Assembly: GCF_034424215.1 (NCBI RefSeq)
Contig: NZ_CP139960.1
Coordinates: 4,216,001-4,280,000 of the forward strand
Reading direction: 5' to 3'
DNA from: Niabella yanshanensis
GTDB taxonomy: Bacteria; Bacteroidota; Bacteroidia; Chitinophagales; Chitinophagaceae
DNA length: 64,000 bases
Position numbers and translations under genes: made by a program
Shown: positions 1-3,914 of the stretch, in pieces
Layout: each line of letters begins with the position of its first letter
Numbering within the stretch: position 1 is the stretch's first letter
The notes under the pieces: model-generated
Database searches by the model: none
Seen by the model: the letters and a program-made list of their open reading frames with translations, nothing else
Told to the model about the DNA's origin: nothing

Positions 1-594
1 CCTCAGATTGCCTTCAACCAGAACAAAGTCGATGATCTTTTGCATATAGATGGAGGTGGAAAGTCCCAGGATGGTATAAATTGCAGCACCAATAACAGCT
101 TGTAACATAATAGCGCTATGTGGCTGGATCAGCTGCCAGAATCTTTTAATGTTGGATACTTTTTCATTGCCCGTGGTAAAGCTTTCGCCGGGCACGATCA
201 ATACAATTACGCCGGTCCATATTTCTTTAAATGCTTCATGTGTATGCCTGTAAAGTTTGCCATCAGCCGGATCCATTACCAGGATATAGTTTTGGGTTGT
301 TTTATAAATCACTACATAGTGGTACAGCTGATTCTTAAGCTGCAGGTGAGCGATGGCAGGCAGCGGAATTTTAAAAAGACTTTCAAAAGGGCCTTTAGCT
401 CCTTTGGCCTGGAAGCCCAGCTTTTCTGCAGCTTCTATCAGGCCCAGTACATTCGTGCCGCGTTTATCGGTACCTGCAAACTGGCGGATACGGCTAACTG
501 GCAGACGGAGCTTATAATGGGCTGCGATTGAGGCCAGGCAGGCGGCGCCACAATCAGTGACGTCTCTTTGTTTGATTTTGATTTCCTTTCTCAT
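1..594 (-). CDS. Peptidase C39-domain ABC transporter (peptide exporter), N-terminal 198 codons
   Basis: This is the start of a peptidase-containing ABC transporter that would cut double-glycine leaders and export the released peptide across the inner membrane. The reading frame is open from the ATG to the window edge, so the rest of the membrane domain and the ATPase lie outside. Seen: the C39 motif QRDVTDCGAACL at residues 9-20 with catalytic Cys15, His92 (YHYVVIY) and Asp108 (VMDPADG), then the start of the transmembrane domain from about residue 155. It is the last visible gene of a minus-strand run with the HlyD protein, a CPBP protein and two GG-leader peptides, which gives it its likely substrates. 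Family assignment is firm; substrate pairing is inferred from neighbours. Confidence 0.93.
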   Translation of the reverse strand, partial: MRKEIKIKQRDVTDCGAACLASIAAHYKLRLPVSRIRQFAGTDKRGTNVLGLIEAAEKLGFQAKGAKGPFESLFKIPLPAIAHLQLKNQLYHYVVIYKTTQNYILVMDPADGKLYRHTHEAFKEIWTGVIVLIVPGESFTTGNEKVSNIKRFWQLIQPHSAIMLQAVIGAAIYTILGLSTSIYMQKIIDFVLVEGNLR

Positions 595-671
595 AGGTCT
601 TTAACAGTATTGGGTTTCAAGCAGGTTGCCGCAGGCAGATCCGTTGAATTAGAGACCCTTGCAATCGGTAG

Positions 672-1784
672 CTACCCTGCGTTGGCTATTCCAGGCGCTG
701 CCGGGTTCAGCCAGTCGTCTATCTTATCAAACAGCAATTGCCAGAGTGTTCGTTCTGCTACAACAAACCGGGCCTGCAGCGATAATCCTTTTTTCAGCTT
801 CTCGGGGAAGCCATTTTTTAAATGCAGCTGTGTAGTATCAAAACTGCAGCGTACTTTAAATACCAGCTGTTCATTCACTACTGAAAAGTCATTGTCGATA
901 CTTAAAATTGTCCCGGTAAGCACACCAAAATAGTTATAGTCAAAAGCGTCGACCTGGAATCTTGCAGCCTGTCCTGTTTTGAGTAAACCTACATCCCGCG
1001 TATTTACATAACATTCTGCAATCAGGCTGCTTTCGGGCGATAGGGTAGCAATGGTTTGTCCTGCCTGTACCATGCTTCCTTCATATAAGCTATTGATGCC
1101 TTGAATTACGCCGCTTACCGGTGCTTTTATCTGGAAGTTTTTTTGATCAGCCAGTATTTTGCTTCCGGCAGCCTGAAGTTGTGATAGCTCAGCTTCGTAG
1201 GTTGCCAGCTCCTGCTGCCATTGGGCTAGCTGGTTGCGCGTAAATGCCTCGTAAGCCGCCAGTAGTTTTTCATTTTCAACCTGCTTGTCAAAGGCTTCTT
1301 TAGGAGCAATTACTTTGTCTTTTAAAAGGGTATTATTAATGTCCAGCTCCCGCTGCACTTTTCTAAGTGAAGCCTGTTGATCAGCCAGTTGGTATTTAAA
1401 CCGGTTGAGTTGTTGCTTGTATAGGGCGCTACTTAAACTATTAAAGGAAACATTGCCATGAGACGTGGTAAGTATTTTAAGGTCATGTATAAACAGCGTG
1501 CGTTGGTTGATGTCGTAGTTATTACTTACAGCCTGCACCGGAGATACTTCATCTTTAATAATGGCGATTATCTCACCCGCTTGCACCAGCTCACCCTCTT
1601 TGTAAAAGAGTTTTTCTACGATGCCTGAAACAACCGGTTTTATATCGCTACGTTCGGTTACAGGACGGGTAATACCGGTAGCCCGGGTAGAAATAGTGGT
1701 GGAGATGAAGGGCAATGCAACCAATGCCGCCATTACCATAACCAGGGTGACAAGATAGATTATGGAAGTTTTTGGGAAATTCAT
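672..1784 (-). CDS. HlyD-family membrane fusion (periplasmic adaptor) protein
   Basis: A 370-residue adaptor that would link the C39 ABC transporter to the outer membrane for peptide secretion. Seen: a short cytoplasmic N-terminus, one membrane segment at about residues 8-28, a lipoyl-like half motif (KPVVSGIVEKLFYKEGELV) near residue 50, a long Gln/Leu-rich coiled coil at about 110-215, the second half motif (APVSGVIQGINSLYEGSMV), and a beta-rich C-terminal part. The length is usual for HlyD proteins paired with bacteriocin exporters. It lies 77 bases ahead of the transporter and 18 bases after a tiny membrane-peptide gene, consistent with one transcript. Confidence 0.92.
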   Translation of the reverse strand: MNFPKTSIIYLVTLVMVMAALVALPFISTTISTRATGITRPVTERSDIKPVVSGIVEKLFYKEGELVQAGEIIAIIKDEVSPVQAVSNNYDINQRTLFIHDLKILTTSHGNVSFNSLSSALYKQQLNRFKYQLADQQASLRKVQRELDINNTLLKDKVIAPKEAFDKQVENEKLLAAYEAFTRNQLAQWQQELATYEAELSQLQAAGSKILADQKNFQIKAPVSGVIQGINSLYEGSMVQAGQTIATLSPESSLIAECYVNTRDVGLLKTGQAARFQVDAFDYNYFGVLTGTILSIDNDFSVVNEQLVFKVRCSFDTTQLHLKNGFPEKLKKGLSLQARFVVAERTLWQLLFDKIDDWLNPAAPGIANAG

Positions 1785-1802
1785 AGGTGTAAAAAATGGT
1801 TA

Positions 1803-1919
1803 TCATTGGGAATTGTAGCCATCCAGGAAACCTTGTTTGGCATCTTCCCAGTCAAGGATGAGCCATACTGTAAGCACTATTATAATAATTATATAGATGG
1901 TTCGTTCATTTAATTTCAT
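1803..1919 (-). CDS. Small single-pass membrane protein, 38 residues
   Basis: I do not recognise a named family. The gene reads MKLNERTIYIII at its start, has one very hydrophobic segment at about residues 8-22, and ends in an acidic, polar tail (LDWEDAKQG then FLDGYNSQ). It sits 49 bases after the CPBP gene and 18 bases before the HlyD gene on the same strand, a spacing that supports translation as part of the secretion operon. A role in assembling the exporter or in immunity is only inference. Its short length means a chance frame cannot be excluded, but the predicted topology and tight packing argue for a real gene. Confidence 0.6.
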   Translation of the reverse strand: MKLNERTIYIIIIIVLTVWLILDWEDAKQGFLDGYNSQ

Positions 1920-1968
1920 AGCGGAGTGGGTTATGTTATTAAAGAAAATAATTACATTTTATGCTGTT

Positions 1969-2442
1969 CTAGGCAAGATATTTCTTGAGAAGAAAAACGC
2001 ATAGGTTATAAAGTAAATGGATCAAAACAACAGATAAATACGGATAGAATTTGGCTTTTTTGAAATAGAGATAACTATAATTGAGGGTGATTCCTCCCAA
2101 AAAAGCATTTACACGGTATAACCAATTGTAGCTATGCATAAAAGAAAATACCAAGCTGCTACATATGATAAATAACCAGTCCTTATTACTGTCAGTCAAG
2201 GTGACGTCCTTCGTTATATACAGAAAGATTTTGTAAGAATAGTATTGGAAAATCAGTGTCTCGAAAATAGGGACAAGTAATATAGTAACGATTGCTTCTT
2301 CAATTGTAGAATCCCAAATTATAGCGTTATTTGATAAAATGCCTTTGAGATAGTAGTAGGATAAGTATGAAATCGCAACTGAAAGTAAAAGATTTATACT
2401 AATTACCAGAAAAACGAACTTGAGATATTTACCTAAAGTCAT
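1969..2442 (-). CDS. CPBP-family intramembrane protease-like protein (bacteriocin-associated)
   Basis: A membrane protein of 157 residues related to CPBP (Abi/CAAX-processing) glutamic proteases. Seen: several hydrophobic segments and variants of the family motifs: ETLIFQ in place of EExxFR, FSFMH (FxxxH) and HLLYN (HxxxN/B). The open frame extends 14 codons further upstream, but that part is encoded inside an intrinsic terminator hairpin. The ATG giving MTLGKYLKF is preferred because the paralogue about 1.5 kb away has almost the same length (156 residues) from its own start. CPBP proteins beside bacteriocin genes often give immunity or process peptides; which applies here is not visible. 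It lies between the precursor peptides and the transporter genes. Confidence 0.85.
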   Translation of the reverse strand: MTLGKYLKFVFLVISINLLLSVAISYLSYYYLKGILSNNAIIWDSTIEEAIVTILLVPIFETLIFQYYSYKIFLYITKDVTLTDSNKDWLFIICSSLVFSFMHSYNWLYRVNAFLGGITLNYSYLYFKKAKFYPYLSVVLIHLLYNLCVFLLKKYLA

Positions 2443-2452
2443 TTGTTGAAAA

Positions 2453-2485
2453 TTAAAAAAATGCATGCCATACTTGGCATGCATT
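2453..2485 (-). terminator. Intrinsic terminator/attenuator after the precursor-peptide genes
   Basis: A perfect 10-bp stem (AATGCATGCC / GGCATGCATT) with a 6-base loop is followed on the minus strand by a T run. It starts 8 bases after the stop of the second peptide gene and ends just before the CPBP start. Partial read-through would give abundant peptide mRNA and less transporter mRNA; that role is inferred. Confidence 0.8.
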
Positions 2486-2493
2486 GTAAAAAA

Positions 2494-2691
2494 TTATTTG
2501 TAAAAGTATTTTGAGCCTTGTGAAGCACCCTCAACGAAAGCACAAAAGCCACCCCAAATTGCCATTGCTGTATAAACTCCATAATAGCTTATATCGTTGG
2601 CAAAAGAAGTGTCTTTAGATGGTGTTTTGCCTCCATAGGTGTCCATCAACTCTGTTTGGTTTAATTCCGTTAGTTCTATTAAATTTTTCAT
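2494..2691 (-). CDS. Double-glycine leader precursor peptide (bacteriocin-like), 65 residues
   Basis: A likely secreted peptide precursor. Seen: an N-terminal leader of 21 residues that is Leu/Glu-rich (NLIELTELNQTELMD) and ends in TYGG, followed by a 44-residue core that begins KTPSKD, carries the hydrophobic stretch VYTAMAIWGGFCAF, a GxxxG motif (GASQG), and ends KYFYK. The leader form and the nearby C39 transporter suggest cleavage after GG. It contains one cysteine, so no disulfide within the core. It lies 17 bases after a second precursor gene whose core also begins KxPS, which fits a two-peptide system. Antimicrobial function is inferred, not shown. Confidence 0.82.
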   Translation of the reverse strand: MKNLIELTELNQTELMDTYGGKTPSKDTSFANDISYYGVYTAMAIWGGFCAFVEGASQGSKYFYK

Positions 2692-2708
2692 GGTGTTAAA
2701 GTTTAGTA

Positions 2709-2915
2709 TTAGCGAGGATTGTTTTTATTGTAATCTTCCCAGGCACTTACTGCTCCATCCTTAATGTCTTTCCAATTGTCAACTACAAAGGCTACAAGAC
2801 CACCTATAGTTAATTTTCTTGCCCAAGATGGGACTTTCCCCCCATCTGCTACAAGCTGTTCGTCCGGAGCGAGGCTGACCAGCCCCATTTTTTCGAGTTC
2901 AATTGTTTGTGTCAT
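2709..2915 (-). CDS. Double-glycine leader precursor peptide (bacteriocin-like), 68 residues
   Basis: The first gene of the peptide operon. Seen: a 26-residue leader (MTQTIELEKMGLVSL, ending LVADGG) and a 42-residue core starting KVPSWARK, with a hydrophobic block TIGGLVAFVV, an amphipathic acidic/basic half (DNWKDIKDGAVSAWED) containing the GxxxA motif GAVSA, and a polar tail NKNNPR. There are no cysteines. Leader sequence and core start resemble the partner peptide just downstream, and the C39 transporter at the end of the run is the expected processing enzyme. A class II-like, possibly two-component bacteriocin is the best inference; a signalling peptide is an alternative. Confidence 0.82.
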   Translation of the reverse strand: MTQTIELEKMGLVSLAPDEQLVADGGKVPSWARKLTIGGLVAFVVDNWKDIKDGAVSAWEDYNKNNPR

Positions 2916-3443: not shown

Positions 3444-3914
3444 TTAAAGCAGTGTATGTCTGATAACGAATACTAAAAAGTTGTACAGGCAATGGATAAA
3501 CGTCACAGACCAGTAAGGATAGAAATTAGCCTTTGTAAAATACACGTAAGCATAATTAAGACAAATCCCGCCCAGAAATGCGCTGACGTGGTACAACCAG
3601 TTGTAATTGTGAAATGCAGAGAATACCAGGCTGGCTGAAATAATAAACAACCCATCTTTAGTATTGCGTTTTAAGTTTAGCTTTTTAATTAAAAACTGAA
3701 AAGCATCATAAACTGAAAGCTGAAATATAAGCGTTTCAAGAAGGGGCGCGACCACCACCACCAGGCAAAATTCTTCCATCAATGACTTCCATTCTATAGT
3801 ATTGCGGGACATAACACCATCTAATAGATGATGCGATAGACAGGCCAGAGAAAAGGTTATAAGCAGTTGCAGCGCTACAATTGCAATAGCAAATCGGAAA
3901 TGCTTATACACCAT
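3444..3914 (-). CDS. CPBP-family intramembrane protease-like protein, second copy
   Basis: A 156-residue paralogue of the CPBP protein in the secretion operon. Seen: the same motif variants, ETLIFQ, FSAFH and HCLYN, and long matching stretches such as NYNWLYHVSAFLGGI and LIFQLSVYDAF. It stands alone, on the same strand as the peptide operon but about 530 bases upstream of it. A terminator lies about 90 bases before its start. A stand-alone CPBP gene beside a bacteriocin operon is a reasonable immunity candidate, but this is inference. The duplicate shows that the unusual glutamate motif is conserved, not a random mutation. Confidence 0.8.
   Translation of the reverse strand: MVYKHFRFAIAIVALQLLITFSLACLSHHLLDGVMSRNTIEWKSLMEEFCLVVVVAPLLETLIFQLSVYDAFQFLIKKLNLKRNTKDGLFIISASLVFSAFHNYNWLYHVSAFLGGICLNYAYVYFTKANFYPYWSVTFIHCLYNFLVFVIRHTLL

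Follow-up and report, generated by a model that had tools for sequence, protein, structure and literature searches.

A predicted two-peptide bacteriocin operon with a candidate CPBP immunity protein in Niabella yanshanensis and relatives elsewhere in Bacteroidota

We analyzed a stretch of 64,000 nucleotides from Niabella yanshanensis (contig NZ_CP139960.1, positions 4,216,001 to 4,280,000; hereafter the window), whose first 2,915 nucleotides carry two small precursors with double-glycine (GG) leaders, P1 and P2, together with genes for a CPBP membrane protein, a short membrane peptide, a HlyD adaptor and a C39 peptidase-ABC exporter. We consider it probable (roughly 75%) that the product of this operon is an unmodified bacteriocin of two peptides, similar to class IIb, with CPBP as its immunity protein and an exporter of Gram-negative type; this is a prediction from sequence. 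A previous reading of the same DNA, made from the sequence only, had proposed a two-component unmodified bacteriocin, and this is still the best-supported interpretation on the basis of two GG precursors inherited together, an exporter with a peptidase domain, the accompanying HlyD, a TolC close by, the CPBP protein, an apparent exchange of peptides and CPBP as a block, and a local likeness of the P2 core to LcnG-alpha and PlnK and of the P1 core to PlnJ. The features concerned are as follows (aa, amino acids).

2709..2915, minus strand: P1 precursor, 68 aa, leader ending in DGG (leader 2838-2915; core 42 aa), with a C-terminal motif like NWxDIKxGxxxGW; P1 alignment of 24 rows
2494..2691, minus strand: P2 precursor, 65 aa, leader ending in YGG (leader 2629-2691; core 44 aa); P2 alignment of 23 rows
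1969..2484, minus strand: CPBP (Rce1-like) membrane protein, candidate immunity protein (PF02517, 39.3 bits, cut-off 22.4)
1803..1919, minus strand: 38-aa peptide with a single hydrophobic segment and a tail like the P1 C terminus (from profile and comparison with relatives)
672..1784, minus strand: HlyD-type periplasmic adaptor (PF13437, 74.8 bits)
1..594, minus strand: C39 peptidase-ABC exporter, N-terminal part, the remainder lying beyond the window (PF03412 and TIGR01193, both above cut-off)
3444..3914, minus strand, just upstream: second CPBP protein, candidate orphan immunity gene (47% identity to the first; PF02517, 33.2 bits, cut-off 22.4)

Structure of the operon and proposed mechanism

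The two precursors, the CPBP protein, the 38-aa peptide, HlyD and the C39 exporter were all found on the minus strand where the sequence-only reading had placed them. The Pfam and NCBIfam scans covered ten proteins: six of the window, three of the left flank (including the whole exporter) and one from a second C39 locus of this genome (L004). As that reading had advised, we looked left of the window for the rest of the transporter, and the exporter proved to be intact in the genome (721 aa, L003:11429-13594), with C39, ABC membrane and ATPase domains recognized by Pfam. A TolC-type outer-membrane protein (PF02321) lies 66 bases beyond it, followed by a resistance-nodulation-division-type adaptor and then a putative VOC-like protein. 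When 23 relative loci were scanned with this TolC, a relative adjoined C39 in four (L016, L026, L126 and L131). An Rfam scan of L003, the genomic stretch with the exporter, gave nothing at the gathering score.

The proposed mechanism is that P1 and P2 would be made as inactive precursors, that the C39 peptidase would cut them after GG, and that the ABC exporter would pass the cores outward via HlyD and TolC; the genes are observed, and the process is suggested by their families. The two cores would then pair in the inner membrane of competitors, mainly relatives, and permeabilise it. The CPBP protein would guard the producer in its own membrane, as reported for PlnL (plantaricin JK) and PlnI (plantaricin EF), and the second CPBP protein may guard against a sister bacteriocin. 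Exchange would move the P1 core, P2 and CPBP jointly, with the P1 leader and the exporter staying fixed, as seen in one contig pair; the 38-aa peptide would be an extra membrane element found in some loci of the Niabella type, where it might act as a decoy for P2.

The P1 alignment does not include L018 (whose cores equal those of L019), L129 and the second P1 of L124 and L127; the P2 alignment is without L018, L129 and the P2 of L130, and L123 and L128 yielded no P2. Two sequence features emphasized previously were only partly sustained. The core start KxPS was indeed present in the own pair (KVPS/KTPS), but among the 24 P1 and 23 P2 sequences it was common only to the own locus, L026 and L016 (KMPS/KTPS). 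The helix-helix motifs held for P1, in which strict GxxxG was enriched across relatives (9 of 11 distinct cores vs 3.6 expected from shuffles; own motif GAVSA, that is, GxxxA), and were not clearly above shuffles for P2. With the relaxed motif (G, A or S), the counts were 11/11 for P1 (9.3 expected) and 10/10 for P2 (9.4 expected). The P1 leader of L016 ends in GS, not GG. The net charge of the cores (K+R minus D+E) ranged from -1 to +3, and typical class IIb peptides have a higher charge. Lower net charge than in typical antimicrobial peptides is reported for bacteriocins in the available part of a class II survey (PMC12648078).

Both window CPBP proteins exceeded the PF02517 gathering cut-off. 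The motifs of CPBP/Rce1-like proteins are EExxxR, FxxxH and HxxxN. In a 12-row alignment of the two window proteins with 10 relatives (24-52% identity to the first window CPBP), E75, T76, Q80, F113, H117, H156 and N160 were invariant; the first motif is ETxxxQ instead of EExxxR, and the candidate catalytic Glu, His, His and Asn appear to be retained. An AlphaFold2 model of CPBP (mean predicted local distance difference test score 88.2) had no PDB match at an expect value (E) ≤0.001, which is neither for nor against the Rce1 assignment. No relic of P1 or P2 was found beside the second CPBP gene. CPBP-type proteins are described as the immunity proteins of sakacin 23K and plantaricins EF and JK in the text available of PMC8538875, and we regard the CPBP protein as a candidate immunity protein.

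Relatives and exchange of a peptide block

To collect relatives, the GTDB r220 species genomes were scanned once with two short peptide patterns from an HlyD alignment, which gave 16 loci, 12 of them strong; L028-L031 (21-26% identity) lie outside the analysis, and L027 is truncated and has no upstream DNA. The order P1-P2-CPBP-HlyD-C39 was kept in all 11 family loci having upstream DNA, so that the arrangement noted before is not due to chance, and CPBP was present in the own locus and in all 11 of these (its frame is broken in L026). The hosts were Niabella (L016, L026), Sediminibacterium/Sphingobacteriia metagenome-assembled genomes (L017-L020), Hydrotalea (L021), Chitinophagaceae (L022) and Flavihumibacter (L023-L025); L021 and L023 are apparently the same loci as L010 and L009. 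The nearest relative was Niabella hibiscisoli (L026; HlyD 80%), in which the CPBP, HlyD and C39 frames are broken and P1, P2 and the 38-aa peptide are intact, reflecting either assembly indels or a decaying operon. In L022, extra small open reading frames (ORFs) occur between CPBP and HlyD: in the interval from 473 to 124 bases ahead of the HlyD match, one encodes a third GG peptide, whose core is hydrophobic and rich in Gly, and another a small membrane protein.

The locus is spread across the phylum, yet uncommon. With the P1 profile, 14 of 395 phylum genomes including the own one matched at E≤0.001, and the remaining 13 (of 394) are all outside the family, so that the earlier limitation of this bacteriocin to Chitinophagaceae has to be abandoned. 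In these 13 genomes, two adjacent GG peptides were present in 11 (not in L123 and L128), HlyD in 10 and CPBP in four (in the stretch read). Two peptide pairs occurred in L124, as tandem sets, and in L127; the pair of L129 is without the P1 tail motif, and L086 has P1-P2-CPBP without an adjoining exporter. Within the family, the P1 profile matched 12 of 244 genomes at E≤0.1 including the own one, several of the matches being leader-only or weak; own P1 as query found 3 of 244 (own included), and own P2 found only itself. HlyD matched 1362 plasmid records, every one below 60% identity. A further candidate, L015 (G200), was dropped as a relative, as its 3.8 kb contig held a CPBP gene and neither a GG peptide nor an exporter was noticed there.

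A pair of contigs, L017 and L018, provided information on how the locus may change. They share a left block of 1972 bp with one mismatch, which ends within P1 codon 24 (the first Gly of GG), and a right block that runs from HlyD codon 28 for 5868 bp with three mismatches ahead of the fourth. Between the blocks, identity was 49% for the P1 core and 34% for CPBP, whereas the P1 leader was 100% identical; the P1 core, all of P2, CPBP and HlyD residues 1-27 change as a unit. The P1 and P2 cores of L018 equal those of L019 (HlyD 94% identity), and the P1 core of L017 has 68-73% identity to Flavihumibacter cores but HlyD only 55-56%. Thus, in this one contig pair, the peptides and CPBP appear to have been replaced together, as would be anticipated if a pair of toxins travels with the gene that confers immunity to it. 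The N-terminal membrane segment of HlyD (codons 1-27) varies in step with these parts and may therefore be in contact with the cargo.

Comparison with known bacteriocins and alternative explanations

At E≤1, the lactococcin G alpha model matched 6 of 23 P2 precursors and one of 24 P1, and the beta model matched 8 of 24 P1 but also 8 of 23 P2; matching of P2 by the beta model and of P1 by the alpha model indicates that the leader contributes to the scores. The beta-model matches of the L021, L023, L024 and L025 P1 run through the core (14.5-22.9 bits). When the leader was kept and the core shuffled (n=4 each), the beta score of L023 P1 fell from 22.9 to 9.0-17.3 bits and the alpha match of L131 P2 (23.5 bits, the top alpha score seen) was lost. 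The lactobin A/cerein 7B class IIb model (TIGR03949) matched 14 of 24 P1 at E≤1, and most of the matches seen stop near the GG site; L128 P1 alone among those listed exceeded its cut-off (25.9 vs 21.5 bits), through leader and core start. Two listed P2 passed the general GG-leader model TIGR01847 (cut-off 15.7): the second pair of L127 (16.2 bits) and L132 (16.7 bits).

More specific information came from core-only profiles, which were scored on real peptides and on 3000 shuffles of each. The P1 core profile gave PlnJ 9.3 bits (3/3000), with 98 for LcnG-beta, 730 for LcnG-alpha, 501 for PlnK, 1084 for PlnE and 142 for PlnF. The P2 core profile gave LcnG-alpha 12.4 bits and PlnK 12.8 bits (both 0/3000), with 652 for LcnG-beta, 345 for PlnJ, 74 for PlnE and 1097 for PlnF. 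When the profiles were split into family and outside members, the results for PlnJ (2 and 6/3000), PlnK (0 and 0) and LcnG-alpha (19 and 0) were repeated. The best matches to these three are local, covering 13-18 residues. Each chain fits one member of the known pairs more closely than its counterpart, but these matches do not establish common descent.

A number of results weigh against the bacteriocin interpretation. CPBP was not found in 9 of the 13 loci outside the family, in three of which (L127, L129 and L132) a membrane-like ORF follows the peptide pair, and strict GxxxG occurred in only 4 of 10 distinct P2 cores (2.2 expected from shuffles). It had been proposed that the cores be searched against known bacteriocins: own P1 and P2 matched no bacteriocin model of NCBIfam, leaders included, and no such model was matched by core-only sequences. 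All lactococcin G scores seen were below the cut-off of 37 bits (NF038034 and NF038035), and the top beta score (L134 P1, 24.9 bits) covers the leader and first core residues only. The split profiles did not repeat P1 against LcnG-beta (735 and 201/3000), the outside-family P2 profile gave 56/3000 on the wrong partner LcnG-beta, and reversed PlnK still scored 7.1-9.5 bits, so that the PlnK match is partly Gly spacing. In addition, PlnJK and LcnG were chosen after the resemblance had been noticed, and neither was listed at E≤10 when the P1 and P2 profiles were run against the PDB set. With regard to the exchange, the CPBP proteins of L018 and L019 share 71% identity despite identical cores, and L017 and L018 are metagenome-assembled contigs in which a chimaeric join is possible; such a chimaera is less likely because the same cores as in L018 are present in L019 and cores with 95% identity in L020.

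When P1, P2 and CPBP were compared with PDB sequences, no LcnG, PlnJK or Rce1 appeared, and the carnobacteriocin B2 precursor was listed at E 0.2 with a match over its leader. Against plasmids, L023 P1 found no record and L131 P2 found 20 (best E 7), all of them from Lactococcus; in the one record that was read, the peptide did not appear LcnG-like, and this lead was dropped.

Other explanations of the operon were considered. P1 and P2 might be pheromones that are exported by C39 and sensed by relatives, not toxins, since pheromones are also carried by C39 exporters and some precursors weakly matched the BlpC/ComC models. However, the ComC matches were confined to the leader, no sensor kinase or response regulator was noticed by eye beside the operon, the two distinct cores (37-51 aa) are long for pheromones, and CPBP appears to have been co-exchanged with the P1 and P2 cores; a signaling role is therefore improbable. 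We think it very improbable that the operon encodes a surface-held two-protein toxin that acts by contact instead of diffusing, as in Caulobacter Cdz. The Cdz layout is similar (Gram-negative, two peptides, type I export and immunity through a small membrane protein), but Cdz is contact-dependent with glycine zippers, CdzC and CdzD are 84-86 aa with N termini that are RTX-signal-like, and 'double glycine' does not occur in the portion of the Cdz text available (PMC5380434), whereas P1 and P2 have GG leaders and a C39 exporter. Finally, the peptides could be modified (a lanthipeptide or radical SAM product) by an enzyme encoded elsewhere: the outside P1 of L125 weakly matched TIGR04149, a radical SAM-modified family (E 0.2), and three P2 precursors weakly matched a lichenicidin-type model. 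On the other hand, a look for such an enzyme outside the window, as advised before, revealed no maturase in the 13 kb to the left (ORFs of at least 90 aa, translations read by eye, three scanned), none was noticed between P1 and C39 in relative loci, and Cys is absent from 10 of 12 P1 and 9 of 12 P2 cores of the family. Modification is thus highly improbable.

Considered as a two-peptide bacteriocin, the system resembles plantaricin JK in having two peptides, in the likeness of P1 to PlnJ over 13 residues and of P2 to PlnK over 15, and in the Abi/CPBP immunity protein (PlnL, according to the accessible text of PMC8538875); it differs in its Gram-negative exporter with HlyD and TolC, and the likeness is only local. 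In the group of lactococcin G, enterocin 1071 and enterocin C, the immunity protein is of another kind than CPBP. The likeness to this group lies in P2 and LcnG-alpha, but scores here are below cut-off and partly leader-driven, and that between P1 and LcnG-beta is not robust. The lactobin A/cerein 7B model likewise matches many P1 of relatives but not own P1 or P2. Class II microcins such as microcin V have a GG leader, a C39 exporter, HlyD and TolC as here, but are single peptides of Enterobacteriaceae. With respect to targets, enterocin C is reported to act on BacA and LcnG to require UppP (PMC12765074, in part).

The bacteroidetocins are also peptides of Bacteroidota that a C39 ABC transporter cuts and exports, but each is a single class IIa-like peptide accompanied by a thiol oxidoreductase and a protein with five transmembrane segments, and no immunity protein was found according to the part of the report available (PMC6671954). 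Neither of these two accompanying proteins was seen beside P1 and P2, in the window or in the 13 kb to the left. The second C39 locus of the genome (L004:7113-10993; G000:C1, ~5.037-5.041 Mb) contains a C39 exporter, a thioredoxin-like protein (by eye), membrane ORFs of 214 and 80 aa and a GG peptide of 65 aa that has two Cys, and is close to the four-gene bacteroidetocin layout described in the same text.

Class II bacteriocins have already been predicted in Bacteroidota by a computational survey (PMC12648078, as far as its text was available), which limits the surprise of the present finding. No two-peptide bacteriocin of Bacteroidota, with a two-chain family, CPBP partner or block exchange, was among the literature matches listed for open-licence papers; in the literature consulted, two-peptide bacteriocins are Gram-positive, and Cdz is a Gram-negative relative in design. 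If the bacteriocin interpretation is true, two-chain logic and the same immunity class would be combined with a Gram-negative exporter across Bacteroidota, and this design would then appear not to be confined to one side of the Gram divide. The receptor, the crossing of the outer membrane and CPBP immunity would then become testable in this phylum, and the natural block exchange would offer ready peptide/CPBP pairs for specificity tests.

The 38-residue membrane peptide and other loci

At E≤10, the P1 profile had only two matches in the 5.5 Mb genome, first P1 itself and second the 38-aa peptide (E 0.026, 17.4 bits). Within the window, the 38-aa peptide scored 19.2 bits, P2 10.6 and the best site off the locus 9.4. 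Its tail, DWEDAKQGFLDGYNSQ, is closer by eye to the P1 tails of other genera than to that of own P1. By a motif scan of the 11 family loci, an ortholog occurs in L026 only (66% identity), and simple counting gave a nonsynonymous distance (dN) of 0.21 and a synonymous distance (dS) of 1.51, the latter near saturation. A profile of six transmembrane tails matched the P1 of G108 (2.2e-6) and G231 (5.4e-6), and is not fully independent, some of its rows having been P1-profile matches. The 38-aa profile matched 146 of 244 family genomes at E≤1, probably mostly by chance; 10 stretches were looked at from the 38-aa and P1 profile matches, and for L090, L091 and L092 the matching translation alone was read. 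The 38-aa peptide is probably a real gene that shares its tail with P1, and it may be a decoy, a part of the exporter or a general membrane tail.

Two genes for XRE-type proteins (assigned by eye; L088:5355-5741 and L089:5689-6060) have a C-terminal membrane helix and a P1-like tail, for example NYTEIKSGIVEGWNSK; no exporter was seen among the listed ORFs around them. A reading that would connect these observations is that the P1 C-terminal segment serves as shared bait: the 38-aa peptide would show it periplasmically on the inner membrane of the producer and titrate P2 (decoy immunity), and the XRE-type proteins would use their copy of this tail to sense the peptides. The idea is suggested by the rank of the 38-aa peptide as second P1-profile match, by the transmembrane-tail profile that matches P1, and by the dN and dS values. 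The lack of a visible exporter near the XRE-type genes counts against it, as does a 43-aa look-alike that precedes HlyD in L083, an operon with different cargo in which no P1 or CPBP was seen. Overall, we consider this bait function unlikely.

Another type of GG-peptide pair, whose cores open with a hydrophobic stretch and an AGC or GGC resembling a lipobox, was observed in L083 (9779-10305) and L085 (7947-9958). The Pfam model LPAM_1 matched the L083 peptides below its cut-off. These pairs lie by an HlyD-C39 exporter of the same type and a protein of 249-280 aa, and in L085 the pair is present twice.

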